DNA of 64,000 bases from an uncultured Gammaproteobacteria bacterium. GTDB lineage: Bacteria > Pseudomonadota > Gammaproteobacteria > JAADHQ01. Positions 8,399 through 64,000 of the stretch are shown one piece after another. The translations under genes were made by a program, and so were the position numbers. The stretch's first letter is position 1, and the number at the start of each line of letters is the position of its first letter. The notes beneath the pieces are model-generated. The model made no database searches. It was not told the origin of the DNA and worked only from the letters and a program-made list of their open reading frames with translations. Location of the stretch: positions 1 through 64,000 of the forward strand of contig CAMYJO010000018.1 in assembly GCA_947258755.1 (NCBI GenBank), in the 5' to 3' direction.

Positions 8399-9730
8399 GT
8401 GTCTACCGACAAGATTGCACACCAAAACCAAGTAAAGAGAAGTAAAACGCGGGAGGGCTCCCCGGAGGGGAAGGCCCCGCGTTTACACGATGAGATTATT
8501 TCTGATGAGGGTACCAAGTCTAGTAACACAGTACCCTCTAATTGCATTAATGATAGCAATACCAAAATACTAAGAACTGGAATTGACAGTCTTTATCTCT
8601 CTTATCAGGGGGAGTTATTTGAAGAAAGCTCGATAAGGCTTAATGCCCTCAAGGAACTAGCACAATCAAAGAATCCTGATAAAGTGGCTCTAGCTCAATT
8701 TCCAGTATATGACCATCTATTCGATGTTAGTGATCGTGGTCGTCATCCATTTGCATTTATCCTGAATGATAATTGGTACCGTATTGAGGTAGCCAAATTA
8801 GGTGCCCTGCGCGCTCCCCTCGCCCATTCCCAACTCTCTAGTAAGCTCCTTACATTGAAAGGTGCTGAGAGCGCCGTAGAGAGCCTTACGTCCATAATTA
8901 AAGCACTAGGCTCACTCTCTGACGGCCCCAATACTAGCCGCGTCGATCTCTGTGTAGACTTTCTCACTGAGCATCCATTAGAGAAAATTATAGACATGGA
9001 CTGGGTTACCAAGGCTAAAGATATGGACCGCTACACGGTTCAACGTAAATTCTCTGGTTGGGTTATCGGTAGAGGCAGGATCTCTGCACGTTTGTATAAC
9101 AAGACATTAGAAATGGAGAAAAAATCCCGCCCTTATCTTGAAGACTTATGGCGTGAGTCCGGATGGGACGGAAAGCAATCTGTATGGCGTCTAGAATTCC
9201 AGATACGTCGAGACTGTTTGCGTGAGCTGGGTATTATTTCTTTCGATAGTCTGATGCAGAATCTATCAGGTCTATGGAAATACTCTACGCAAGACTGGCT
9301 CCGGTTATCCGTACCCAATCACAATGACAAGACTCAAACACGCTGGCCGACTGCACCCGTTTGGGAGTCGCTCCAAAACGCTAACTGGGCGGGCAATGAA
9401 AAGCTAACGCGAATTAAACCAGATAAAAGTAGACTGCCTTCGTATCATTATCTATTTCATAATGGTCTAAGTGCCTTCCATTCGTTCATGGCAATGGAGT
9501 GTATTAGTGACCCCATCGAAGGTGCCCATGCCTTCCATCAAGCCGCTAAAAAATATCATGATGAGCGTGAGTATTTCACGGGTTTGTCTTATTACGACTA
9601 TGTGACCCAAAAAGTGGCGCTAAAGGTAAAAGCCTATAACACCTTTCGTAACTTACCCACTGAAGATACGTTACATCCAGCAGATGAAGCGGTGGCAAAA
9701 GCCTATAGGAAACAGCGAGATGGCGAATAA
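8399..9730 (+). CDS. Replication initiation protein (Rep_trans-like)
   Basis: 443 residues from a GTG start with AGGAGA 6 nt upstream. The core shows TSRVDLCVDF, then ARLYNKTLEMEKK and VWRLEFQIRRDCLRELGI, the pattern of plasmid and phage replication initiators of the Rep_trans/replication-initiation-factor type that nick and start rolling-circle replication. The first 60 residues are polar and probably disordered. It overlaps the excisionase start by 11 bp, so rep, xis and int form one operon. It would replicate the excised circle of the element. Family assignment rests on pattern recognition only. Confidence 0.7.
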   Translation: MSTDKIAHQNQVKRSKTREGSPEGKAPRLHDEIISDEGTKSSNTVPSNCINDSNTKILRTGIDSLYLSYQGELFEESSIRLNALKELAQSKNPDKVALAQFPVYDHLFDVSDRGRHPFAFILNDNWYRIEVAKLGALRAPLAHSQLSSKLLTLKGAESAVESLTSIIKALGSLSDGPNTSRVDLCVDFLTEHPLEKIIDMDWVTKAKDMDRYTVQRKFSGWVIGRGRISARLYNKTLEMEKKSRPYLEDLWRESGWDGKQSVWRLEFQIRRDCLRELGIISFDSLMQNLSGLWKYSTQDWLRLSVPNHNDKTQTRWPTAPVWESLQNANWAGNEKLTRIKPDKSRLPSYHYLFHNGLSAFHSFMAMECISDPIEGAHAFHQAAKKYHDEREYFTGLSYYDYVTQKVALKVKAYNTFRNLPTEDTLHPADEAVAKAYRKQRDGE

Positions 9731-48055: not shown

Positions 48056-48586
48056 CTACCAAGGCATGAAGGAATTCATGAAATTCATCGGTCTTGAAAC
48101 ATTGTTATTGAGCACCGACATATCCCGGCGCATCTGATTAACAGCCACCGTCATAATATGAACTGAACGGTTCATTTCGACGAAATTACCATTCATATTC
48201 CGCATCTCAGCCAACTGCAAACCCAACTCGCCATCCATCGATGCAACGGAAGCCGACATATTCTTTACATGACCGGACATTGTAACGACACTGCTGGACA
48301 TTCGATTGATGTTTTCTGATATCTGCACCATATTGGTGGAGATAGTCTTCATTTCACCAGTCACCTTATCAACATCCCTGGTCAAACTGAAAATCAGATA
48401 AAAGCCATAGACCGCCAGAAGTATAAAGGCAAACATCGAAGGATAAACTATTGCTTCCCAACGCTTGGCGCTTGCAGCAAAAACTTCGTATATTTTTTCG
48501 AGACTATTAACTGAAGCCTCGTCATCTAATAATAAATGACCTTCTTCAACTTCTTTTACATCATCGCTGGCTTTCTTTTCTGTCAT
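48056..48586 (-). CDS. Single-TM coiled-coil protein, unknown function
   Basis: 176 residues from the ATG at 48586 (GGTGGAAG lies just upstream). The first 45 residues are acidic and cytoplasmic-looking, then one membrane span (about 49-70, AIVYPSMFAFILLAVYGFYLIF), then a long helical region rich in Met, Ser and Asn with heptad-like spacing (MKTISTNMVQISENINRMSSSVVTMSGHVKNM). It resembles the HAMP/coiled-coil stalk of a chemoreceptor but has no signalling hairpin. It is the last gene of the minus-strand low-complexity cluster and is probably periplasmic after the span. Confidence 0.75.
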   Translation of the reverse strand: MTEKKASDDVKEVEEGHLLLDDEASVNSLEKIYEVFAASAKRWEAIVYPSMFAFILLAVYGFYLIFSLTRDVDKVTGEMKTISTNMVQISENINRMSSSVVTMSGHVKNMSASVASMDGELGLQLAEMRNMNGNFVEMNRSVHIMTVAVNQMRRDMSVLNNNVSRPMNFMNSFMPW

Positions 48587-48688
48587 ACTTCCACCCATCA
48601 TGGGTTAAATATCAATACTCAATTTTAATGCACTGGCAATAATTAAGCTATTGATATATTCATTACTTCAACAACATAAAAGGATTGC

Positions 48689-49276
48689 CTAGAAATCCCC
48701 TGATGCTCCACGTTTCATAATATCAGTTATAATCATTTTCACTTGTTCTGCATCTTTTTTCACTTCTTCTGGTAAGGGTTTGCCACCATGAATCATCAAG
48801 TCCATATTCATGGTGTATATCCACAATCGCCCTGTTTTATCTTCTATCAGACTGACTCGACAGGGTAAATAGGCTGAAAATGCATCATTATAATCCATCA
48901 TTCTTGATGCTGTCAGCGCGTCGCAAAACATAAATATCTTAGCGTAACGGTATGGCTTTCCGCTCATTGACTCTACTTGCTGATACAAGGGCAGCTCACC
49001 GACATTCTTGATATTATGCTCACTGGCGACTGATTTCATAACATCCTCAACATCATCGGCCGACATCCCTTCCTGCACTGATGATCGCCAGACAGTTGCT
49101 TCGACTGCACTGCCAGTCGCTGCCAGATTATTCGCAAGCTGCAGATAGACTTCTCCAGCCATAGGGTCCAAATCCGTTGTTAACCTCATCAGAGCTGAAT
49201 AGCGTGTAATCAGCACGATGGCCAGTATAATCACTGCCAAACCGATAAGTGCCAGTAAATTCCTTATTAGAGACAT
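48689..49276 (-). CDS. DUF302 domain membrane-anchored protein
   Basis: 195 residues. One N-terminal membrane anchor (about 5-26). The DUF302 fold follows: YRYAKIFMFCDALTASRMMDYNDAFSAYLPCRVSLIEDKTGRLWIYTMNMDLMIHGG, with the typical LPCR-V-x-E-D and Cys residues (FCDA, LPCR). DUF302 proteins occur often in sulfur-oxidising bacteria, but their role is unknown. It is probably periplasmic. It belongs to the minus-strand cluster, 91 bp downstream of the Pro/Gln-repeat TPR gene. Confidence 0.85.
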   Translation of the reverse strand: MSLIRNLLALIGLAVIILAIVLITRYSALMRLTTDLDPMAGEVYLQLANNLAATGSAVEATVWRSSVQEGMSADDVEDVMKSVASEHNIKNVGELPLYQQVESMSGKPYRYAKIFMFCDALTASRMMDYNDAFSAYLPCRVSLIEDKTGRLWIYTMNMDLMIHGGKPLPEEVKKDAEQVKMIITDIMKRGASGDF

Positions 49277-49366: not shown

Positions 49367-51004
49367 TTACCGGGCAGATCGCTGCCCTTGCAGTCGTTTC
49401 TCCAACTCATCAGCGCGTTTATGTTTTAAGCCGCGTATTATCGACAACATAGTAAAGGCCTTATCACTACGCCCATTTTCAATTAAACGTATAGCGGCCT
49501 GATACAGACTTTCACCCGCCTTATCCCACTCACCTTGATCGTAATATAGATTCCCAAGCTCTCCATGCGCATCAGGAGATTCCGGTAATAAATCAATCGC
49601 CTGCTGATAGTACTTTGCAGATTGGGGATACTGACCTTGCCAATAGGCCTGACGGGCCTTATTGATGATCTGTTGATATTCTTGACGCGAAGATTGCTCA
49701 GGTGTTTGCGCGGGCGCAGTTGCAGTAGGGGCTGGCCGTTGCTGACCGTATGCTCCTGGCCATCCAGGATAAACCCGACCTTGACCAGGGGATACGCCCG
49801 GTGTTGTCGGTTGTGGTTGTGGTTGTGGTTGTGGTTGTGACTGTGGTTGTTGCATGCCAGCAGTAGGGGCTGGCCGTTGCTGACCGTACGCACCCGGCCA
49901 CCCCGGATAAGCCCGACCTTGACCAGGGGATACGCCCGGTGTTGTCGGTTGTGGTTGTTGCATGCCACCAGTGGGGGCTGGTCGTTGCTGACCATACGCA
50001 CCCGGCCCAGGATAAGCTTGGTCTTGATCTGGTGATACGCCCGGTGCTGTCGATTGTGGCTGTGGCTGTTGCATGCCAGCGGCAGGGGCTGGCCGTTGCT
50101 GACCGTATGCTCCTGGCCATCCAGGATAAACCCGATCTTGACCTGGAGTTACGCCCGTTGCTGTCGACTGTGGCTGTTGCATGCCACCAGTGGGGGCTGG
50201 TCGTTGCTGACCATACGCACCCGGCCCAGGATAAGCTTGGCCTTGATCTGGTGAAGCTCCCGGCGTTGCCGTTTGAGTTTTTGTTTGCGCAGGGCTCTGC
50301 GCAGCAGCACTACTGTCGGGAGCCGACGGGTTGATCATACCTGACATTGCCTGTGATGGATTCTGCATCATGCCTGACATGCTCTTGATTGGATCTTTCA
50401 TCATCCCTGAAGCCATTTTCGCCGGATCTATGCTGCCTTTGTTGGGCGCTGCAGCGTCAGCTTGCTCTGAACCCGATGCTGCCACAGCCTTGTCCTGCTC
50501 TGGTTGTGCCGTTTTTACGTTTGCCTCCAGGCTACCTTGATCAGACATAGCCACACCAGAAGCTGGCTTGTCTATGGCAATACCGGCTTCGGTAGGAGTG
50601 GCTTTGATAACTGCTTGCGGCGGTGTCTCGGCAATATCGGCTACTTGCTGTTGAGGAGCTACTGTAGACGGAGGCATGGTTGCAGTCGACTCTACATGGG
50701 TCTGCTCAATTGGCGCTGTAACTACTGGTTGACGATCTGCAACTGGAGCTGGTGAAGCGGGCTCTGCGTGGCCGACTACAGGCAGGTCTTTGCTGTCAGA
50801 TGTAACACCAGCATCAGGCGTAACAACATCCTTATCGGAAGTAGTTGACGGAGCTTCGTCGGCTTTTTGAGCCACCGATATTTCCTCTGTTCCCGACTCG
50901 AAAAATTTCGGAAACAACTGTTGCCGGTATACATATACAATAGCGATACCAACAACGACTGCGACCACTAGCCCATGACGTAACAGAAACTTAAACCATT
51001 TCAT
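49367..51004 (-). CDS. Membrane-anchored Pro/Gln-rich repeat protein with TPR tail
   Basis: 545 residues. One anchor near residues 12-28 (LVVAVVVGIAIVYVY), preceded by basic residues, so the bulk should be periplasmic. Residues 40-245 are Ala/Pro/Thr-rich, with a Met-rich block (MASGMMKDPIKSMSGMM). Residues about 245-425 hold five tandem copies of a 35-45 residue unit (YPGxPGAYGQQRPAPTxGMQQPQ), some expanded by PQ pairs. The last 115 residues are TPR helices (ARQAYWQGQYPQSAKYYQQAIDLL and so on). It is a likely scaffold. It lies directly after the ParA-like gene (18 bp). Confidence 0.85.
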   Translation of the reverse strand: MKWFKFLLRHGLVVAVVVGIAIVYVYRQQLFPKFFESGTEEISVAQKADEAPSTTSDKDVVTPDAGVTSDSKDLPVVGHAEPASPAPVADRQPVVTAPIEQTHVESTATMPPSTVAPQQQVADIAETPPQAVIKATPTEAGIAIDKPASGVAMSDQGSLEANVKTAQPEQDKAVAASGSEQADAAAPNKGSIDPAKMASGMMKDPIKSMSGMMQNPSQAMSGMINPSAPDSSAAAQSPAQTKTQTATPGASPDQGQAYPGPGAYGQQRPAPTGGMQQPQSTATGVTPGQDRVYPGWPGAYGQQRPAPAAGMQQPQPQSTAPGVSPDQDQAYPGPGAYGQQRPAPTGGMQQPQPTTPGVSPGQGRAYPGWPGAYGQQRPAPTAGMQQPQSQPQPQPQPQPTTPGVSPGQGRVYPGWPGAYGQQRPAPTATAPAQTPEQSSRQEYQQIINKARQAYWQGQYPQSAKYYQQAIDLLPESPDAHGELGNLYYDQGEWDKAGESLYQAAIRLIENGRSDKAFTMLSIIRGLKHKRADELEKRLQGQRSAR

Positions 51005-51022: not shown

Positions 51023-51679
51023 CTATTTTCTTCCTGTGTTTATTTTAGCTAATTCCGGAAACAGGCTACTTGCAAAAGCATCAAATTCCCTAGCGGCCTT
51101 ACAATTCGGCCAGATCTCGAATACTGCCATACCCTCACTCAGGGATCGGCGATAAATAGTCCTTTGGTACAAACGATGCGGCAGCACGGTTACGCCTGGC
51201 AGCATCCCTAAAGCCTCTTCTGCCTCGTCAGACTCACGTACAGCATGATGCGTATCGGCACGATTGATAAATGCCAATATTTCAGGATGATTATCCTTGC
51301 TCGCCGCATCCTTGATCATCGCCATGAAGCGTTGTGTAGCCCAGACATCTGGCTGACTCGGTGGTACCGGTATAATCACGCGATGGGCAACACTAATCGC
51401 TTCTTTCATTCGCGGCATATTCGCTACACCCACATCGACAATAACCTCACCCGGGTGATAACGCAGATGATCGGCCAGTGCCTCTTGCGCCAGATATACC
51501 TGCAAAGGTGGTGAGTAGCCTTCTTCACGCCTTACGGTTGCTATATCAGACAAGGTTAATTGCGGGTCTAGGTCATAAGCGGCCACCGGATGACCTTTTT
51601 TTAATAACCATACCCCCAGGTTAAACGCTACTGTACTCTTGCCTGAACCTCCCTTTAAATTTGCGATGACTGTTATCAT
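51023..51679 (-). CDS. ParA/MinD-like ATPase
   Basis: 218 residues, a small ParA-type ATPase. Deviant Walker A KGGSGKST (about 9-16) with both the signature and catalytic Lys, Walker A' AAYDLDPQ (about 33-40) and Walker B EVIVDVG (about 78-84). It lacks the N-terminal helix-turn-helix of plasmid ParA proteins and has no C-terminal MinD amphipathic helix. It is cytoplasmic. No ParB is encoded nearby. Small orphan ParA proteins position cargo such as carboxysomes or chemotaxis arrays. Its place beside a disordered Q-rich protein recalls McdA/McdB (inference). Confidence 0.92.
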   Translation of the reverse strand: MITVIANLKGGSGKSTVAFNLGVWLLKKGHPVAAYDLDPQLTLSDIATVRREEGYSPPLQVYLAQEALADHLRYHPGEVIVDVGVANMPRMKEAISVAHRVIIPVPPSQPDVWATQRFMAMIKDAASKDNHPEILAFINRADTHHAVRESDEAEEALGMLPGVTVLPHRLYQRTIYRRSLSEGMAVFEIWPNCKAAREFDAFASSLFPELAKINTGRK

Positions 51680-52180: not shown

Positions 52181-53023
52181 CTACCGCAGGTAATTGGCTC
52201 CCCTGACCGGTAGTTTTGTTGATGAGTAAGGCCTCTGCATTCGCAGACGATTTTTTGTTTGCCATGGAGATACTTGCAGCGGGCGTTTTGCAGCTGAAAG
52301 CCTTGTCATTGCCTGATGCTGTGTCGATGGTCTGTATTGTGCTCCAGGCTGATAAGGATTCCCCTGTGGCCATCTGTACATTTTTTGCGGTACCTGTGCC
52401 TGACGTGGCATACCTTGCTGGTATGGCCTGTTTTGCATCGGTGGGCGCATGGTCTGACGGGCCGGGTAATGTTGCTGGTTCCACTGTTGAGCCTGAGCCT
52501 GACGCGGCATCGGTGGGCGCATGGCCTGGCTGGCTGGATAGCGTTGCTGATTCCACTGCGGTGCCTGGGCCTGACGCGGCATCGGTGGGCGCATGGCCTG
52601 GCGGGCTGGATAGCGTTGCTGGTTCCATTGTTGAGCCCGGGCCTGTCGTGGCATTTGTGGTCGCTGCTGCATGTTCGGCATCGGTGGGCGCATGGCCTGA
52701 CGAGCCGGGTAACGCTGCTGGTTCCACTGCGGTGCCCGGGCCTGTCGCGGCATTTGTGGTCGCTGCTGTATGTTCGGCATCGGTGGGCGCATGGCCTGAC
52801 GGGCCGGGTAACGCTGCTGGTTCCACTGCGGTGCCTGCGCCTGACGTGGCTGTGAGCGTGGCGGCATCATATTGCCGCGCCACATCGGAGCAACACGCTT
52901 ACCGATTGGCCCATGGTTTAAACTGTTGTATCCCGGTGCCTTGGGTTTGAAACTGTTATCGGCCTGTGTCAGACCTGTAACAGCAATAAGTACAGTTACA
53001 GCAAGTGCAATGGTCTTTTTCAT
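52181..53023 (-). CDS. Secreted basic protein with 25-residue tandem repeats
   Basis: 280 residues. Signal peptide 1-21 (MKKTIALAVTVLIAVTGLTQA). The mature protein is Gln/Arg/Pro-rich, with five or six repeats of QWNQQRYPARQAMRPPMP units joined by PRQAQAP or by an NMQQRPQMPRQARAP extension. It has no Cys or acidic clusters and is very basic, so it should be disordered and could bind polyanions or polysulfide. The repeat leaves the other frames open too; this frame is chosen because it alone has a signal peptide. It is 12 bp upstream of the Tyr/Pro-rich gene. Confidence 0.85.
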   Translation of the reverse strand: MKKTIALAVTVLIAVTGLTQADNSFKPKAPGYNSLNHGPIGKRVAPMWRGNMMPPRSQPRQAQAPQWNQQRYPARQAMRPPMPNIQQRPQMPRQARAPQWNQQRYPARQAMRPPMPNMQQRPQMPRQARAQQWNQQRYPARQAMRPPMPRQAQAPQWNQQRYPASQAMRPPMPRQAQAQQWNQQHYPARQTMRPPMQNRPYQQGMPRQAQVPQKMYRWPQGNPYQPGAQYRPSTQHQAMTRLSAAKRPLQVSPWQTKNRLRMQRPYSSTKLPVRGANYLR

Positions 53024-53076: not shown

Positions 53077-53838
53077 TTATTTCTCCGGCGTGGCCGATTT
53101 TACCTTTTTATAATCCGATGGCACCTGGAAAATGCTCTCAGATTGTTTACCCAACTTGATATCCTTAAGTTCTCGAATATAGCCGCCCGGCATCACTTCC
53201 TTGATGATAATACCTATTTCCGGATCATACCATTGAAAAGTTTTTTCGGTATGGCCATCGGGCCTGCTCATTTGAATAACCCATTTTTCCGTATTGCGAT
53301 TATCTATCTTTTCATTACCGGTTTGCAAAAGCTCGACAGCACTGCCATCAGGAAAAAACTGACGTAAGGCCTGTCCCCTGTCAACATCGACCCATATCAA
53401 CGCTTTTAGCGTTTTGCCTTGAACAACACGGCTTATTTCCCATTTATCAGCAAGACGTCCATTAATCTTTTCCTTAGCCAGTAATTTACAGCTCTCTTTA
53501 AGCTTACTTGTACAAGGATTAGTGGATTTAGGCCGTGATTTGCCCAAGCCAGTATCGACGGGCTGGTTTTTTGCGACTTCATAGATTTTTCGTTGCGGTA
53601 GGACCAGATATTGCAGGCCTTTACTTGGACGATAAATCTCTATGACGGTTTGTTGATTATGAATATATTCTCGACGAATGCCGTCGTTGCCAACATTCAT
53701 TTTAGCGATTTTTGACTGCCCTTGTGGAAACGTTTGAACGGCAGTGGCAGAAAATTCTACGGTGGCTGCAAAACCTTTATGGCTAAATAATAACAGAAAA
53801 AAAAGTTTAGCTATCAAGCGCAATCTTGCAGTCAACAT
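53077..53838 (-). CDS. LolA-like/DUF4412-like periplasmic protein
   Basis: 253 residues from the ATG at 53838. Signal peptide about 1-24 (ending SHKGFA). The rest looks like an incomplete beta-barrel of the LolA/LppX type: VEFSATAVQTFPQGQSKIAKMNVGNDGIRREYIHNQQTVIEIYRPSKGLQYLVLPQRKIYEV, later ALIWVDVDRGQALRQFFPDGSAVELL. Such folds carry lipids or other hydrophobic cargo. Two Cys (CTSKLKESCK) could form a disulfide. Here it may shuttle a hydrophobic component, perhaps sulfur-related (speculative). Upstream frame extension is an artefact of the sulfur globule gene. Confidence 0.7.
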   Translation of the reverse strand: MLTARLRLIAKLFFLLLFSHKGFAATVEFSATAVQTFPQGQSKIAKMNVGNDGIRREYIHNQQTVIEIYRPSKGLQYLVLPQRKIYEVAKNQPVDTGLGKSRPKSTNPCTSKLKESCKLLAKEKINGRLADKWEISRVVQGKTLKALIWVDVDRGQALRQFFPDGSAVELLQTGNEKIDNRNTEKWVIQMSRPDGHTEKTFQWYDPEIGIIIKEVMPGGYIRELKDIKLGKQSESIFQVPSDYKKVKSATPEK

Positions 53839-53905
53839 ATAGGATAAAACACCTTTATTGCTTGTCTCATTAATAGCACATCCCTGTGCTAGCATTATAC
53901 AGATA

Positions 53906-54322
53906 TTACTTGTCTGCTTTTGGTGCTGCTTGTGGTGCTGGTGGAGGTGGTGCGCCATAACCAGGATAGCCGCCACCATAACCAGGATAACCGCCATAAC
54001 CACCAGGATAGCCACCGTAACCGCCAGGATAACCACCGTAACCGCCAGGATAGCCACCGTAACCATAGCCAGGATAGCCGCCGTAACCATAGCCAGGATA
54101 GCCACCGTAACCATAGTGACGACCATCGCCATAACCGCTACCACGACCGCTCATATTGAATGACATACTACCATCACCAAAGCCATCGCCCCAGCCACTG
54201 TTATTCCACGGACCACCGCCGCCCCATGGACCACCGCCCCACCAGGCCTGGGCAGAACCCATCGGTGCTGCTGCAAAACCCAGAGCAGCAACAACAGACA
54301 ATACTTTCAGAGTTTTCTTCAT
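53906..54322 (-). CDS. Sulfur globule protein, Gly/Tyr/Pro-rich
   Basis: 138 residues from the ATG at 54322 (GGAGGTAC upstream). Signal peptide about 1-27 (AAPMGSAQA). The mature start WWGGGPWGGGGPWNNSGW leads to the core GFGDGSMSFNMSGRGSGYGDG, a motif shared by all three globule proteins here. Then come about ten GGYPGYG repeats and a Pro/Ala tail. Sulfur globule proteins form the protein envelope of periplasmic sulfur inclusions in Chromatiaceae. Function is inferred from this family resemblance. Confidence 0.88.
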   Translation of the reverse strand: MKKTLKVLSVVAALGFAAAPMGSAQAWWGGGPWGGGGPWNNSGWGDGFGDGSMSFNMSGRGSGYGDGRHYGYGGYPGYGYGGYPGYGYGGYPGGYGGYPGGYGGYPGGYGGYPGYGGGYPGYGAPPPPAPQAAPKADK

Positions 54323-54589
54323 TTTAAGTACCTCCAATCATTTATGGTTTTTATCCACAGTCTGATACCAGGCCATGAATACCTTAGCTCCTTGCGGCGC
54401 ATCAAACATATAACCGCCGGAGCCAGCCAGTTACATTGCACCTTTCCCAAACGCATAACCCGCTTATGTCTAGCAGCTAGCTGTTAAGCACAAATCCGGT
54501 TAGTACATATAAGAATTCTTATCTTCTGATTTAGTATAATCCTAATACTTCTATTCAATTATTGACCCATATCAGCAAAAATCAATAAA

Positions 54590-55492: not shown

Positions 55493-58400
55493 TTAATTAT
55501 CTAAATCTGTTTTAAGACGGATACCGCGACGCTTACGTCCACCCGACTTTGCTGCTGCCTTAGTCGCAGCGTTTGCGGTCGCGGTAACCGCCTCATTTTT
55601 CGCTGTGGCCTTCTTCACCGTTGTTTTCTTCGGCTCAGTTTTTTTGGCAGCCGCCTTTTTCGCTGCAGCCTTCTTCACTGCTGCTTTCGGTGCAGCCTTT
55701 TTCCCTGCTGTTTTCGGTGCAGCCTTCTTCGCTGTTGCTTTCGGTGCAGCCTTCTCCTCTGCTGCTTTCGGTGCAGCCTTCTTCGCTGTTGCTTTCGGTG
55801 CGGCCTTCTTCGCTGTTGTTTTCGGTTCGGCCTTCTCCTCTGCTGCTTTCGGTGCAGCCTTCTTCACTGCTGCTTTCGGTGCGGCCTTCTTCACTGCTGC
55901 TTTCGGCGCCGCTTTCTTTGCTACTGGCTTTTTGCTAACGACTACGTCAGCTCCTGGCTCTGATGTTACATCAGTCGTTACCGTAGAAACCTTGCTGCCA
56001 TCAGTGGACGCAGCCGCCTGTTTTAAATGACTTGCCTGGCCACCTCCGCCCGGATTGGATGGTGGCGTCCCCGCTGGGTTGTTACCCGGTGCATCCGGCC
56101 CAGGCTCATCAGTATGGCGACGAGAACGTACAAAAGCGATAAGCTTGTCCAGCAACATGCGTAGCACAAAATATATGGCACGCAAGACATAGAATATCCA
56201 GGTAACTACAGATACTGTACCTGACCAGATTGTCAGCCATAACGGGTTTTTAGGTTCACAGACTTCTGCAGTTTCTTCCGGCATTTCCCGTCCGGTCAGC
56301 AGGAAAAATTGTTTTTTAGCTGTAATGCAGCCGAGCGGGATAACAACCAGTGTCAACATAGTTGATACCGCAGTTCCAAATAACAGACTGACCGCCATCC
56401 CCTGGAAAATAGGGTCGGTAATGATTGCAAACGCACCCGCCATCAACGTCAATGCAGTAATGAAGATAGGGCGCATACGGATCTGGCCGGCTCGGATTAC
56501 CGCCTCCTTGATTTCGACACCACTACGTACCTCATTCATCACAAATTCTACTAGCAGAATGGAATTACGAACGATAATACCAGCCAGGGCAATAAACCCG
56601 ATCATCGACGTCGCGGTAAACTCGGCATTCATAATCCAATGACCCGGAATAATACCGATCAAGGTGAGTGGAATGGGCGCCATAATCAATCCACCCAGTT
56701 TAAAATTCTTGAACTCCCAAACAATCAGTCCGTAAATCAACAGCAATGCCGCCATAAACGCCAGGCCCATGTCACGGAAGGTCTCGTAGGTGACCGTCCA
56801 TTCTCCGGTCCATTCCATACCGGATTGATTGGTGGCCTCGGGTGGTCCGATCAGACCCATCGGCATGCCGCTTATCGTGACACCGTCCGGTGTCTCGTAA
56901 TTTTCCAATAGATCCTCGATATTAAACATGCCATAGATGGGTGCGCCGAGACGTCCTTCCATCTCGCCGGTCACATACTCAATACTGCGCAGGTCCTTGT
57001 GATAGATAATGTGCTCGGCCTGCGCCTTAACAAATCGTCCCAACTCGCCTAGCGGAATCGGTTCGCCACCACCCTGCCCCAGTATCGGCAGGGTTTCCAG
57101 CCTTTCAATCTCGGAACGCGCGGCCAGAGGCACCTGGATAACAATGAAAGTTGGCTCCAGTACCACACCCCTTTTCACATCGCCCAATTTGTAGCCACCC
57201 AAGGCCATTTCCAGGTTACGGTTGATCGTATCGACCGAGACACCGCGTCTAACTGCCTTTTCAGTGTCCACTTCGAAACGCCAGTACTGATGAGGTTCGA
57301 TCATGTAGTTGTCAACATCGACCACGCCCTCGGCATCTTTAAACATCTGGGTCATATCGCGTGCGACCTGACGGCGGGTTTCTGCATCAGGTCCATACAC
57401 TTCTGCAACGACCGTTTGCAGTACCGGTGGCCCCGGCGGCATCTCAACCACCTGGATACGGATACCGGAACGAATCAATTCCTGGTTCTGACTGATGAAT
57501 TCATTCAACTGAGTGCGGGCATCAACTGCAATATCATGACTGGGTCGCTCCCTGGCATCCTTGTCCAGCAACATGACCTGGATATCGGCTTCCCAGGGCT
57601 GCTGACGCATATAATAATGGCGCACCATACCATTGAAATTAAACGGAGAGGCTGTACCGACATAGGTCTGTAATGCGGTAACCTCGGGTATTTTTTTCAA
57701 TACCTCGGCCAACTGCGCCGTCACATTGGCCGTTTGTGGCATCGCTGTACCCTCGGGCATATTGATAACGACATTAAATTCCGGCTTGTTATCGAAAGGC
57801 AACATCTTGACCGTGACTGTCTTGGTATAGAACAACGCGCAGGCCAGGAAAGTCAAAATAATCAAGGTATACAGAAAGATTTTGGGTGTGCGCCCACCAG
57901 AACAGAGCGGATCCATACAGGGATTATAGAAGCGCCCGATCATTTCGTTGGTTCTGGCTTCCCTTCTCTCAGCATGCTCAAGTGCCTTTAGCTGCGGACG
58001 AACACGCATCGCCAGCCACGGCGCAAAAACAAACGCGGCAATCAGTGAGAAAAACATGGCCGAAGAGCCAAGTACCGGAATCGGGCGCATATAGGGACCC
58101 ATCAGCCCACTGACAACACCCATCGGTAACATGGCGGCGATAATGGCCAGTGTTGCCAGCACGGTCGGATTACCGACCTCACGTACGGCATCAATGGCGA
58201 TATCAACCGATGTCCGACCCGCCTTTAACCAGCGCCTGAAAATATTTTCAACCACCACCGTGGCATCATCCACCAGGATACCAATCGAAAATACCAATGC
58301 GAATAAACTAACACGATCAATCGTATAATCCAGCACCCACGCCGACCACACGGTGATCAGGATAACAATCGGAATGATGGTAATGACGACCGAGGCTGCG

Positions 58401-59587
58401 CGCACACCCAAACCGATCAAACAAAGCAAACTGACCGCGACTGCCGCTTCAAACAGCGCCATCAACAGTTCATTAACTTTATCATCGGCAGTTTTACCGT
58501 AGTCACGGGTAATACTGACCTGCACATCTGGTGAAATCAGCTCACCTTTCAGACTTTCTAGCCGCTTGAGTAAGGCGTGCGCAACAGTAACACCATTACT
58601 ACCGATCTTTTTTGCGACAGCAATGGTAACAGCCGCGGCAGCATCTGTTTTTGGTGCCGTACTGTCATCATGCGCACTACCTGTATAATAGGTGACCATA
58701 CGACCCGTTTCTTCCGGGGCTTCGATAACCGTAGCCACATCGCGGACATAGACAGGCATATTATTACGTATACCAACGACCAGGCGTGACACCTCCTCTG
58801 CCGAATACAGAAAAGCGCCAGTATAGACATTCATTGCTGTATTACCGCCCTCGACACTTCCGGCATGGCGCTCGGCATTGGCGGTACGAATGGTATTGGC
58901 GACCTGGTCAATGCTGACGCCGAAACCAGCCAGGCGCTCGGGTGAGACTTCAACACGAATCTGTTCCGCACGGCCGCCAACTACAAAGCCTTTGCCGGTA
59001 TCCGGGACTTCTTTCAGTCGTTGCAGAACATCCAGCGCCAGGGTGCGCAACAAAGCATCATCCTGAGTTTCAGACCATAAGGTCATCGTCACCACAGGGA
59101 CATCATCTATACCCACTGGTTTGACCAGCGGTTGCTTGACACCTGGAGGCATCTTATCCAGGTTCGACTGCAGCTTGTCATGGACCTTGACGATTGAATC
59201 CTCAAGATCTTCACCTACTTTGAAACGCACCGTGACGATGGCATCGCCGCGTCGACTCGCAGAGTATACGTGACGCACTCCCGGTATTTCGCTCATGATA
59301 CGTTCTAATGGATCCGTCACCAGACTGGCAACTTGTTCGCTGGAGGCCCCTGGGTACTGCACAAAAATATCTACCATCGGCACAGATATTTTAGGGTCTT
59401 CCTGACGTGGCGTAAAAAAGAGTCCGAGCAAGCCAATGGCCAGCGCCGCCATCATCAACAATGGCGTGACAGGTGAATTAATAAAGGCACGCGCCAGACG
59501 TCCAGCTAGCCCAAGGTGGGCCGTATCAAATACTTCCTGCTCGGGCGGATTCCCGGAAGATGCTTTTTTTTCTGATTGTTCGCTCAT
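55493..59587 (-). CDS. RND family transporter with histone-H1-like C-terminal tail
   Basis: 1364 residues; the family norm is about 1050. Residues 1-1080 are a standard RND permease: TM1 about 39-59, porter domain with YPGASSEQVASLVTDPLERIMSEIPGV, TM4 proton site GILVDDATVVVENIFRR, and a mirrored second half (IALAGIIVRNSILLVEFV). Two further hydrophobic segments occur near 1110-1150 (IWSGTVSVVTWIFYVLRAIYFVL). The last 210 residues are a soluble Lys/Ala/Pro tail: over a dozen KKAAPKA-type repeats and a final SGGRKRRGIRL. The tail should be cytoplasmic. Substrate is unknown. It is preceded by its adaptor gene. Confidence 0.93.
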   Translation of the reverse strand: MSEQSEKKASSGNPPEQEVFDTAHLGLAGRLARAFINSPVTPLLMMAALAIGLLGLFFTPRQEDPKISVPMVDIFVQYPGASSEQVASLVTDPLERIMSEIPGVRHVYSASRRGDAIVTVRFKVGEDLEDSIVKVHDKLQSNLDKMPPGVKQPLVKPVGIDDVPVVTMTLWSETQDDALLRTLALDVLQRLKEVPDTGKGFVVGGRAEQIRVEVSPERLAGFGVSIDQVANTIRTANAERHAGSVEGGNTAMNVYTGAFLYSAEEVSRLVVGIRNNMPVYVRDVATVIEAPEETGRMVTYYTGSAHDDSTAPKTDAAAAVTIAVAKKIGSNGVTVAHALLKRLESLKGELISPDVQVSITRDYGKTADDKVNELLMALFEAAVAVSLLCLIGLGVRAASVVITIIPIVILITVWSAWVLDYTIDRVSLFALVFSIGILVDDATVVVENIFRRWLKAGRTSVDIAIDAVREVGNPTVLATLAIIAAMLPMGVVSGLMGPYMRPIPVLGSSAMFFSLIAAFVFAPWLAMRVRPQLKALEHAERREARTNEMIGRFYNPCMDPLCSGGRTPKIFLYTLIILTFLACALFYTKTVTVKMLPFDNKPEFNVVINMPEGTAMPQTANVTAQLAEVLKKIPEVTALQTYVGTASPFNFNGMVRHYYMRQQPWEADIQVMLLDKDARERPSHDIAVDARTQLNEFISQNQELIRSGIRIQVVEMPPGPPVLQTVVAEVYGPDAETRRQVARDMTQMFKDAEGVVDVDNYMIEPHQYWRFEVDTEKAVRRGVSVDTINRNLEMALGGYKLGDVKRGVVLEPTFIVIQVPLAARSEIERLETLPILGQGGGEPIPLGELGRFVKAQAEHIIYHKDLRSIEYVTGEMEGRLGAPIYGMFNIEDLLENYETPDGVTISGMPMGLIGPPEATNQSGMEWTGEWTVTYETFRDMGLAFMAALLLIYGLIVWEFKNFKLGGLIMAPIPLTLIGIIPGHWIMNAEFTATSMIGFIALAGIIVRNSILLVEFVMNEVRSGVEIKEAVIRAGQIRMRPIFITALTLMAGAFAIITDPIFQGMAVSLLFGTAVSTMLTLVVIPLGCITAKKQFFLLTGREMPEETAEVCEPKNPLWLTIWSGTVSVVTWIFYVLRAIYFVLRMLLDKLIAFVRSRRHTDEPGPDAPGNNPAGTPPSNPGGGGQASHLKQAAASTDGSKVSTVTTDVTSEPGADVVVSKKPVAKKAAPKAAVKKAAPKAAVKKAAPKAAEEKAEPKTTAKKAAPKATAKKAAPKAAEEKAAPKATAKKAAPKTAGKKAAPKAAVKKAAAKKAAAKKTEPKKTTVKKATAKNEAVTATANAATKAAAKSGGRKRRGIRLKTDLDN

Positions 59588-59687: not shown

Positions 59688-61049
59688 TTATCTTTTTGCA
59701 GGATCCTGTGTAGACGAACCCGGGTTTCGACCCTGTTTTATGTTACTGGCCGGATTCACCAAAATACTGTCGTTATTATGCAGGCCAGATAACACAGTAA
59801 CCATATTACCGCTTATCTTTTCGCCTAGCCGCACATATCGGATATTTGGCTTATTTTGTTCATTCAGGCGATAGACGACAAACAGGCTGCCACGCTGACG
59901 CACTGCAGAGGACGGGATAATAATAACGTTTCTTGACGGTGCACTGACATTGGGTATCTTCACTTCGGCATACATACCAGGGCCGCCAGGCACACCTTTA
60001 GGCAAATCAAACTTCACGGTGACTGTATGGCGTTGCACATCTGCCATCGGGAAAATTTGCGCCACCTTGGCCTTAATATGCTTATCACCCACATCCAGTT
60101 TCGCATCGACAATCATGCCAGGCTGAATGCCGGGCATCAGACGTGCCGGTATATCCACCTGCAATTGTAGTGCCTGGGTATCAGCAAACTTTAATAACTG
60201 CTGTCCCGGCTGTACCGTATCACCGACCTCGACCAGCTTTTTAACGATCAAGCCAGAGAAAGGCGCAATGGCACGTGTATCCCTGAGCTTGGCATCAACC
60301 TCTTCCAGTTTCGAACGTGCTCGTAACATACGTGACTGCGCCGTATTAACAGCCGTACCCCGCGAATACAGATCTGCATGACGATCCATACCGGGATTAC
60401 CGTAACCCATTTGATTACCCATACCACGGGTAAAAAACTGGTCAAACATGGATGGCATGCCCATCCCCGGGCTACGATTAATGTTTCTCGATTGTGGGGA
60501 AATCAATTCACGTGAATATTGAACCTGCGCATTTCTGATCGCAGACTCTGCATTACTCAGTTCGGCTACAGCCGCACGACGCGCTGCTAGCAGATCATCA
60601 TCGTCAATTGAAACCAGGACCTCCCCTTCCTCGTGATAATCACCCTCGCTACCAGCGATGAACTCAATTCTTCCGGGGATTTGCGCCGACAAGGTGACGT
60701 CCTTAAATGGTATCACTGTGCCCCCTAGTTTTACCGTGCTGCTCATCGGTAGAGCACGCACTATAAACACGGGGTTAGCAGGGCTATTCGGGTTGTTGCC
60801 GTAGCCTTGCTGCGGCTGGTGCATCATACCCTGCTGAAATACAGGAGCAGGTTGGTAAGGCATCAATGGTGCGCTACCCATGCCTGCCGGCGGATAGCCG
60901 GCAGGCGGCTGAGCAACTACTGGATAGCCGGTATTCCCCTGCGTGTAGATTTGGCGGCTGTCCTGGTAATTAGGCGCAGCTTGCGCAACTGTGGTGACCA
61001 ACATAGTCGTAAAAAGTGTTACAGCTGTAGACAAGGTTTTTATTAGCAT
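59688..61049 (-). CDS. Membrane fusion protein (RND adaptor) with low-complexity insert
   Basis: 453 residues from the ATG at 61049. Signal peptide about 1-25 (TTVAQA). Residues 26-85 are Pro/Gln/Gly/Met-rich (GYPPAGMGSAPLMPYQPAPVFQQGMMHQPQQGYG), like the neighbouring secreted proteins and unusual for an adaptor. The lipoyl domain (IPFKDVTLSAQIPGRIEFIAGSEGDYHEEGEVLVSIDDDDL), helical hairpin and beta-barrel follow. The hairpin contains another Gly/Met-rich insert (SPGMGMPSMFDQFFTRGMGNQMGYGNPGM). No outer-membrane channel gene is in the window, so TolC is probably shared. Confidence 0.9.
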   Translation of the reverse strand: MLIKTLSTAVTLFTTMLVTTVAQAAPNYQDSRQIYTQGNTGYPVVAQPPAGYPPAGMGSAPLMPYQPAPVFQQGMMHQPQQGYGNNPNSPANPVFIVRALPMSSTVKLGGTVIPFKDVTLSAQIPGRIEFIAGSEGDYHEEGEVLVSIDDDDLLAARRAAVAELSNAESAIRNAQVQYSRELISPQSRNINRSPGMGMPSMFDQFFTRGMGNQMGYGNPGMDRHADLYSRGTAVNTAQSRMLRARSKLEEVDAKLRDTRAIAPFSGLIVKKLVEVGDTVQPGQQLLKFADTQALQLQVDIPARLMPGIQPGMIVDAKLDVGDKHIKAKVAQIFPMADVQRHTVTVKFDLPKGVPGGPGMYAEVKIPNVSAPSRNVIIIPSSAVRQRGSLFVVYRLNEQNKPNIRYVRLGEKISGNMVTVLSGLHNNDSILVNPASNIKQGRNPGSSTQDPAKR

Positions 61050-61134
61050 TGTATTTTTAACTCGAAACTCTCTAACATCGGCTGATATCCGCCAGCTATC
61101 GGCATGTAATCGGCATATGAAAAAAAACAAATTT

Positions 61135-61530
61135 TCAAGCCCGACCCATCACACCAAAGCTTTTGATAAATGGACCAGCCATGCGCGGATCTTTTACCAT
61201 CGCGGAATAATCGCCAACATTGAATTTCAGCTTACGTGAAGTATAAGCTATACCCAAGCCCATCATGCCCGGTGGCTTTTTCATCCATTTTTGCCAGTTC
61301 TCGGCAGTAGCCCTGAGGTCCCAGTTAAGCTCCTGATCCTGATAGCTGCCAGCACCGACCGCATGCCCATTCTCGATGACAAGCACCGCACGAGGATTTT
61401 CCTCACCATCAAACCCATAACCTATAACAGAGTTAAAATCGATGGCCGCCAGTTTTTCCGCCAATTCCGGTTCAGCATTCCATTGTCCCATGTAGGAGTT
61501 CATCCATTCATCTGAAAAAAGATCCGCCAT
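61135..61530 (-). CDS. SCP2 sterol-binding domain protein
   Basis: 131 residues. No signal peptide. SCP2-like fold: WNAEPELAEKLAAIDFNSVIGYGFDGEENPRAVLVIENGHAVGAGSYQDQELNWDLRATAENWQKWMKKPPGMMGLGIAYTSRKLKFNVGDYSAMVKDP. Members bind hydrophobic molecules; some are linked to sulfur metabolism gene sets. GGAGAAAATA precedes the start. It is 85 bp upstream of the adaptor gene start, so it could be the first gene of the pump operon. Confidence 0.8.
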   Translation of the reverse strand: MADLFSDEWMNSYMGQWNAEPELAEKLAAIDFNSVIGYGFDGEENPRAVLVIENGHAVGAGSYQDQELNWDLRATAENWQKWMKKPPGMMGLGIAYTSRKLKFNVGDYSAMVKDPRMAGPFIKSFGVMGRA

Positions 61531-61821: not shown

Positions 61822-62109
61822 TCAGCAATTAGTGCAGTACAAGTGGTTCAACATATCCATCATATTCAGGATTCTGCGGTCTCGTAATTTATAATAGACG
61901 TTTTTCGCTTCCTTACTGGAAACAAGCACGCCCTTGTCACGCAAGGTAGATAAATGGTGCGAAACATTACTTTGTGAACTGCCCACTGTCGTTGCCAGAT
62001 CCCTGACCGAAAGTGCCTCATGACTCAATACATACAGTATTTTAAGTCGTATAGGATGTGACAGGGCCTTGATGGTCGTTGCCGCACAGTCAAATTCATT
62101 ATCTTGCAT
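61822..62109 (-). CDS. ArsR-family repressor with C-terminal CxxC
   Basis: 95 residues. Winged helix: KALSHPIRLKILYVLSHEALSVRDLATTVGSSQSNVSHHLSTLRDKGVLVSSKEAKNVYYKLRD (about 14-77). It has Cys8 near the N-terminus and a CTNC pair at the very end (C92, C95). Related ArsR proteins (SqrR, BigR, YgaV) sense persulfides through two Cys residues, so sulfur sensing is plausible but not shown. There is no arsenic CVC motif in the recognition helix. It lies between the SCP2 and sulfur globule genes on the same strand and is a good candidate regulator of the cluster. Confidence 0.9.
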   Translation of the reverse strand: MQDNEFDCAATTIKALSHPIRLKILYVLSHEALSVRDLATTVGSSQSNVSHHLSTLRDKGVLVSSKEAKNVYYKLRDRRILNMMDMLNHLYCTNC

Positions 62110-62534: not shown

Positions 62535-62885
62535 TTACTTTGCAGCCGGAGCAGCGGGTGCCGCAGGAGCACCGTAAGGAGCAGCACCATAAGGAGCGCC
62601 GTAAGGAGCAGCACCATAAGGAGCAGCGCCATAAGGGGCACCATAACCGTAAGGAGCGCCATAACCACCGTAGTAAGGGTTGCCATAACCATAACCATTA
62701 CCATACATACCGGTATTTGCACGTGAATTCATATTGAATGACATATTGCCATCACCAAAACCATTACCATTGCCCCAACCATTGTTACCATAGCCATTGT
62801 TCCAAGGATTCCAGCCCCAGGCACTGGCGGAACCAGCTGCGGCCAGCATTACAGTTGCGGCTACGAAAGTAGTTAGCTTTTTCAT
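62535..62885 (-). CDS. Sulfur globule protein, Gly/Asn/Ala/Tyr-rich
   Basis: 116 residues. Signal peptide 1-22 (AAAGSASA). The mature start [18 protein letters not shown] leads to the core [35 protein letters not shown], close to the other two globule proteins. The tail consists of [14 protein letters not shown] repeats and a final [23 protein letters not shown] precedes the start. Closest by feel to the small CV1/CV2-type sulfur globule proteins of Allochromatium; an exact ortholog cannot be named. A tandem ATATTGAT repeat lies in its upstream region. Confidence 0.9.
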
Positions 62886-63446: not shown

Positions 63447-64000
63447 TTATTTTACTTCATATCGCTTGTTCATCATCGCCATGTGCTCTTCATGGGCCTG
63501 CTTTTGCGCTTCGATTGCTGCCTTGCGTCGTTCCTGCATGCGCTCCATCATTGCAGTGCGGGCTTTTTGATGCGCCTCGAAAGCAGCCTTTTGCTGTTCT
63601 TCCATCTGCTTGAAGTAATCTGCTGATGCTTGCGGAGCCTGCATTGGAGCCTGACGTCGTTCCTGCATGCGGGCCATCATTTCCTTTTCAGCTTTTTGTC
63701 GCGCTTCAAAAGCCGCTTTTTGCTGTTCTTCCATCTTTTTCTGGTAATCCGCTGCTGCTTTCTGCTGCTCTGCCTGTTGTTCAGCAGTCGGAGCCGCTGC
63801 AGGTGCATAAGCGTAAGGGGCATAGCCGTAGTAAGGATTGTTATAGCCGTAACCATTACCTTGAACGTTAGAACGTGCATTCATATTGAAACTGAAATTT
63901 CCGTCACCATAACCATTTCCATTACCGTTACCAAAACCCGGTCCACCAAACCATGCACTCGAAACTGTACTGACACCCATAAGCGCTGCTGCAATTACAA
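63447..64000 (-). CDS. Sulfur globule protein with long coiled-coil tail (SgpD-like), 5' end beyond window
   Basis: At least 184 residues; the frame runs off the window through the end of a signal peptide (VIAAALMGVSTVSSAW). The mature start has FGGPGFGNGNGNGYGDGNFSFNMNARSNVQGNGYGYNNPYYGY, the same core as the two other globule proteins. From about residue 65 of the mature part it changes to Gln/Lys/Glu/Ala helices (AEQQKAAADYQKKMEEQQKAAFEARQKAEKEMMARMQERR), with an AFEARQKA/AFEAHQKA duplication. SgpD of Allochromatium is also a coiled-coil globule protein (from memory). The tail could link globule coats to one another or to other partners. Confidence 0.85.
   Translation of the reverse strand, partial: VIAAALMGVSTVSSAWFGGPGFGNGNGNGYGDGNFSFNMNARSNVQGNGYGYNNPYYGYAPYAYAPAAAPTAEQQAEQQKAAADYQKKMEEQQKAAFEARQKAEKEMMARMQERRQAPMQAPQASADYFKQMEEQQKAAFEAHQKARTAMMERMQERRKAAIEAQKQAHEEHMAMMNKRYEVK

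Follow-up and report, generated by a model that had tools for sequence, protein, structure and literature searches.

A conserved C-terminal tip on an RND permease is evolutionarily coupled to a ParF-type ParA ATPase: a candidate tether for pump positioning

A tailed permease and a ParA-type ATPase in one operon

The 64,000-nt stretch of DNA analysed here (hereafter the window, in which all coordinates are positions) comes from contig CAMYJO010000018.1 of an uncultured Gammaproteobacteria bacterium (GCA_947258755.1) and harbours an operon encoding a resistance-nodulation-division (RND) permease with an unusual C-terminal tail together with a ParA-type ATPase. The permease is encoded by an open reading frame (ORF) at 55493-59587 on the minus strand and comprises 1364 amino acids (aa), including 274 extra residues (1091-1364) beyond the core. 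The core (residues 1-1090; 56318..59587, minus strand) is TriC/HAE-like and matches PF00873 (ACR_tran) over residues 32-1085 with an E-value of 2.5e-142; the full-length domain scores 476.2 bits against a curated cut-off of 28, which places the protein among the RND permeases, and its closest solved relative by sequence is 6vej, a probable RND efflux transporter. As in RND efflux permeases of the TriC/HAE type, a full ACR_tran domain is accompanied by an adjacent gene for a periplasmic adaptor (membrane fusion protein; 59688..61130, minus strand; TIGR01730, 168.7 bits against 94.9), and the two genes adjoin in 80 of 87 loci. The protein differs from these permeases in that its tail ends in a conserved tip and in that the cut-offs of the named NCBIfam RND subfamilies (multidrug RND_permease_1/2, CzcA/CusA) are not reached, the best score being 413.7 bits against 1250. 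The long extra tail described in an earlier note on this DNA is real: the extension is in frame and is also present in relatives.

The ParA-like ATPase that the same note placed in the cluster was confirmed at 51023..51679 (minus strand). It is a ParF-type protein of 218 aa with the Walker A sequence KGGSGKS, matching PF01656 with 53.2 bits against a cut-off of 25.4. The family form of this deviant Walker A motif, KGG[ST]GKS, contains the signature lysine and conforms to KGGxGK[ST], and K9, G10, G11, G13, K14, S15, P104 and D111 are invariant in 14 members. The predicted structure shows a ParA fold over the whole chain (predicted local distance difference test, pLDDT, 90.3), and ParF and the TP228 ParA-AMPPNP-ParB complex (5u1g) come out as the best PDB matches in both the profile and the fold comparison, with template modelling scores of 0.75-0.85; BcsQ is also among the structural neighbours, well below ParF. 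The cut-off of the ParA_partition equivalog NF041546 was not reached (130.8 bits against 180).

Anatomy of the tail and its tip

AlphaFold2 modelling of residues 950-1364, using an alignment with 28 homologues, gave the last transmembrane (TM) helices, then one unbroken 43-residue helix, then disorder to the C-terminus. The helix (residues 1116-1158; 56114..56242, minus strand) has a pLDDT of about 80-92 and a hydrophobic moment of up to 0.51; since it is modelled as continuous and is amphipathic, the two hydrophobic segments proposed earlier to follow the core are better read as this single interfacial helix. The disordered linker (residues 1159-1352; 55532..56113, minus strand) has low pLDDT throughout and includes Lys/Ala/Pro repeats encoded by a 27-nt tandem repeat of 9.7 copies at 55658-55918. 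These amount to about ten 9-residue K-K-A-A-P-K-type units; the KKAAPKA-type repeats of the earlier description are real. The linker is followed by the tip, RRGIRLK (residues 1353-1359; 55511..55531, minus strand), which had been overlooked. Identity to the window across the 28 homologues is 0.74 for the core segment, 0.24 for the helix, 0.19 for the linker and 0.96 for the tip, in which R, G, I and K never vary and L hardly does.

The tip lies 0-30 residues from the C-terminus in tip-bearing homologues, whose tails are roughly 126-382 residues long. RRGIRLK occurs once in the source genome and, as a rule, in one protein per genome elsewhere. Matches to the pattern in sequences other than RND tails arise by chance or are unrelated, except for a stand-alone membrane protein of 349 aa in G141 (L329, G141:C341, minus strand), which has hydrophobic N-terminal segments and ends in KRRGIRLK (tip at 9394-9414). 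Its gene is divergent to that of an RND paralogue with 41% identity; the genome has ParA but no close family RND, and this single case points to tail and tip as a module. A literature search for RRGIRLK found the motif in no paper.

The established topology of RND permeases places their C-termini in the cytoplasm. The proteins of Magnetococcales (L046, L055) and L099 lack the helix, and their tail, which still carries the tip, runs on directly from TM12; their tip is therefore cytoplasmic, as, by homology, is probably that of the window protein. A thirteenth TM helix with a periplasmic tail was considered and judged unlikely, because these same proteins carry the tip without any helix, the helix of the window protein has an amphipathic character, and the positive-inside rule would be violated by a Lys-rich tail on the outer side of the membrane.

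Repeat-encoded tails are prone to frameshifts, with one case in G081, and an assembly artefact or a strain oddity was the null raised with the first description of the tail. The tail is, however, in frame in the same-genus relative L005/G002 (308 residues, core 93% identical) and in most family homologues, and dozens of genomes, belonging to several Gammaproteobacteria families and to the Magnetococcales, encode in-frame tails with this tip. The tail is therefore neither a frame error nor a strain oddity, and this explanation can be regarded as already refuted.

The composition of the tail had also led to the proposal that it is histone H1- or AlgP-like and touches nucleoid DNA, RNA or polyphosphate directly. 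The window linker, with a net charge of +27 over 187 residues, would suit such a role, and there is a precedent in the Myxococcus xanthus chemoreceptor FrzCD, where a charged disordered tail has been proposed to link the signalling complex to the nucleoid (PMC5716589). Across homologues, however, the linker varies from 70 to 323 residues and can be Lys-rich, Pro-rich, composed of Pro/Ser/Thr, of PPPPREMPP or AEKAAAEKA type, or acidic; among 72 tip-bearing tails, Lys content is at least 15% in 23 and below 8% in 13, and net charge is zero or negative in 11. Because linkers vary in make-up, length and charge, the H1-like composition is best read as a local flavour of the linker and not as a conserved feature. 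Several orthologues thus have neutral or acidic linkers, and G203 has kept a Lys-rich tail after losing both tip and ParA. Whereas the FrzCD tail binds DNA directly, the conserved element here is the tip, which tracks ParA. Nucleic-acid binding therefore appears improbable as the function of the tail, although the Lys-rich tail of the window protein may bind nucleic acid directly as an extra property.

Co-occurrence of the tip with ParA

The distribution of tip and ParA was compared in 56 relatives and in 369 genomes of the same class, several of the genomes compared being draft metagenome-assembled genomes (MAGs), and the tip was scored by the relaxed pattern [RK]G[IV]x[LIM][KNDR], where x is a basic or polar residue. 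In the 56 relatives, ParA is found in 10/10 genomes with a tip-bearing RND and elsewhere only in G045. The class sample contains ParA in 64 genomes and the RND family in 73; among the latter, 49 have both tip and ParA, 14 have neither, three have ParA without the tip and one has the tip without ParA, the remaining six being cut by contig ends (Fisher p 1e-10 for the association, kinship ignored). On a FastTree phylogeny of 84 RND cores, whose deep branches are partly weak, the tip changes at least nine times, and in 8 phylogenetically independent pairs ParA changes in the same direction in 7.5 on average and in the opposite direction in 0.0 (p ~0.008). Tip and ParA are evolutionarily coupled.

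The discordant cases weaken on inspection, a frameshift or contig ends accounting for three of the four. In G081 (L230) the tip, as RRGIKLK, is present in another frame, an apparent frameshift that stems from faulty sequencing or from slippage in the repeats; G179 has a second RND copy, truncated where its contig ends; in G113 the contig stops about 700 bases past the tail; and in G322, whose sister genomes have the tip, the RND terminates in repeats close to a contig end. In genomes with two RND copies and ParA on the contig of one of them (G242 and its relatives G072-G073, G087, G217, G220, G278 and G314), the tip is found only on the ParA-linked copy, and the paralogues of about 43% identity never carry a tail, having only 10-29 residues past the core. 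In the tip-less, ParA-less genomes searched, no tip-coding sequence was found anywhere. G018 contains three family RNDs (L011, L026, G018:C30:12813-16043), and of the two whose tails were read, one has the tip and one lacks it. In L103 and L057 (Rhodobiaceae/Pseudomonadota MAGs) the operon is present with a long Ala/Pro tail and a basic end, without RRGIRLK and without the family ParA.

Since correlation is not contact, the tip could bind some other protein, with ParA travelling along in the same version of the operon. This would also accommodate five tip-bearing genomes in which the family ParA was not detected. Two observations argue against it and leave it with a low probability. First, tip and ParA are gained and lost together while other operon genes stay: G105, G229, G127, G342, G328, G203 and L039 have kept DUF4412-like, TPR (tetratricopeptide repeat) or coiled-coil genes, with both ParA and tip gone. 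Second, the coupling holds where ParA is unlinked to the RND gene, as in Beggiatoaceae, Magnetococcales and others including G018 and G035, where ParA lies elsewhere in the genome in 10 cases and was not found in 5; the link is therefore not only operon hitch-hiking.

A pump as a probable cargo of a ParA/MinD system

ParA-partner motifs are short stretches of basic and aliphatic residues in disordered terminal regions (PMC12462528); in McdB this part is played by the 20 N-terminal residues, which include key lysines (PMC12204374), and in ParG by a flexible tail (PMC7308502). RRGIRLK, ending a low-pLDDT tail and having a cognate ParA in the same locus or genome, fits the chemistry of these ParB, ParG and McdB motifs, and the best account of the tail is therefore a tether that presents a ParA-partner peptide, which would probably make the pump a cargo, and a new one, for a ParA/MinD positioning system; we give this reading a probability of about two in three. 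In the mechanism proposed, the amphipathic helix would pack at the inner membrane after TM12 and the disordered linker, free in composition and length, would extend into the cytoplasm to present the tip as the putative partner peptide of the ParF-type ParA of the same operon. ParA-ATP dimers, presumably located on the nucleoid because no conserved membrane-targeting C-terminus was seen in the operon ParA, would engage the tips that the subunits of the trimeric pump each present. Contact with the tip would stimulate ATP hydrolysis and release ParA, and the cycle could space or position the RND-adaptor complex as cargo, in the way that McdA/McdB acts on carboxysomes and ParF/ParG on plasmids.

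As in McdA/McdB, a ParA/MinD-family ATPase is combined with a partner carrying a short basic terminal peptide, and the gene neighbourhood names the cargo; here, in contrast, the putative peptide is part of the cargo, a pump of the inner membrane, and sits at its C-terminus. The TP228 ParF/ParG system provides the nearest solved relatives of the ATPase and likewise places the partner peptide on a flexible tail, and P104 and D111, residues named for ParF, are among the invariant ones here, but the partner in this operon is a transporter, and no ParB/ParG gene or recognised centromere was found in it. Of the idea of nucleoid tethering put forward with the first description of the tail, the connection between tail and ParA finds good support in their co-occurrence, whereas the H1/AlgP-like DNA-binding route is not retained as a conserved function, the composition varying while the tip is kept.

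Several observations weigh against this assignment. Known ParA-partner motifs are N-terminal and RRGIRLK is C-terminal; the five tip-bearing genomes in which the family ParA was not found (L052, L073, L056, L067 and L093) lie outside the class sample, and its absence there is perhaps due to incomplete assemblies; ParA occurs without a detected tip or family RND in G045, G210 and G257; and DNA binding by the operon ParA is assumed from its family.

ParA might also bind the tip and regulate assembly or activity of the RND-adaptor complex without positioning it, in a BcsQ-like manner known from the partner ATPases of secretion machines. This reading predicts the coupling between tip and ParA equally well, it would account for a ParA in an envelope operon without ParB or centromere, and BcsQ is a structural neighbour. 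BcsQ ranks well below ParF, however: in sequence and in fold alike, the ATPase comes closest to ParF and to the TP228 ParA with its partner peptide, and a tether with a short peptide is the layout of positioning partners. Moreover, pump copies lacking the tip are retained where ParA is missing, so a functional pump does not in itself require ParA. Regulation without positioning is, on balance, unlikely.

Chromosomes, plasmids, the divisome, flagella, chemotaxis clusters and carboxysomes are among the known cargos of ParA/MinD ATPases. Should a transporter carry a ParA-partner peptide of its own, a membrane pump would join this list and would illustrate a way of linking a complex of the envelope to the nucleoid. 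A literature search found no paper linking ParA to an RND pump.

Operon neighbours and sulfur context

Neighbouring genes were called by a simple longest-ORF rule and clustered over the 87 loci. The resulting operon order is a 131-aa protein, the adaptor, the RND permease, small secreted proteins, a DUF4412-like protein, the ParA-like ATPase, a TPR protein, a DUF302 protein and a coiled-coil membrane protein. The conserved 131-aa protein is encoded by the first gene (61135..61530, minus strand), found upstream on the same strand in 53 of the 87 loci, and Pfam and NCBIfam searches of it gave no match. The DUF4412-like protein is secreted and belongs to conserved neighbour cluster c10 (53077..53838, minus strand, with a start inferred at 53838 within a longer ORF at 53077-54144); its likeness to DUF4412 is weak, PF14371 being matched in the homologue from Sedimenticola selenatireducens DSM 17993 (L068, a cultured bacterium) with an E-value of 0.0015, below the cut-off. 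After parA follow the membrane-anchored TPR protein (49367..51004, minus strand; PF13432, 39.6 bits), the DUF302 protein with an N-terminal hydrophobic segment (48689..49276, minus strand; PF03625, E 2.2e-12), conserved in 27 loci, and a membrane protein with a coiled-coil-like region (48056..48601, minus strand), a neighbour in 33 loci with a DUF948 match below the cut-off (PF06103, E 3.1e-05). The last of these and its homologues in L035, L068 and L079 have a conserved C-terminal end of their own, SRPMxFxNxFxPW.

dsrA is present in 65 of 75 genomes with the RND family versus 54 of 294 others (p 1.6e-28, uncorrected for kinship), and the pump family is thus found mainly in sulfur-oxidizing bacteria, tying a previously uncharacterised operon strongly to dsr-type sulfur oxidation. 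A sulfur-globule protein gene lies beside the operon (62535-62885; PF17228, E 7.5e-17). It is one of three genes for small secreted Gly/Tyr/Asn-rich proteins around the operon, and the products of the other two (53906-54337 and 63447-63980) resemble it. In Allochromatium vinosum, sgpD adjoins a gene called a hydrophobic/amphiphilic exporter (PMC10386293), and a role of the pump in sulfur-globule biology is plausible. A bolder and rather unlikely extension would have a nucleoid-based ParA act through the inner membrane, gripping the tips and thereby arranging an RND-adaptor machine that serves periplasmic sulfur globules, by globule protein export or sulfur traffic; if true, a motor of the DNA-segregation type in the cytoplasm would determine the position of an inclusion in the periplasm.

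Upstream of the operon, an ArsR-family regulator with three Cys (61822-62109) shows a weak likeness, below cut-off, to the sulfite-sensing BigR and is possibly a sulfur-responsive regulator. Further long tandem repeats are present near the operon in ORFs of Pro/Gln-rich envelope proteins, at 49842-50254, 52435-52850 and 63526-63760.

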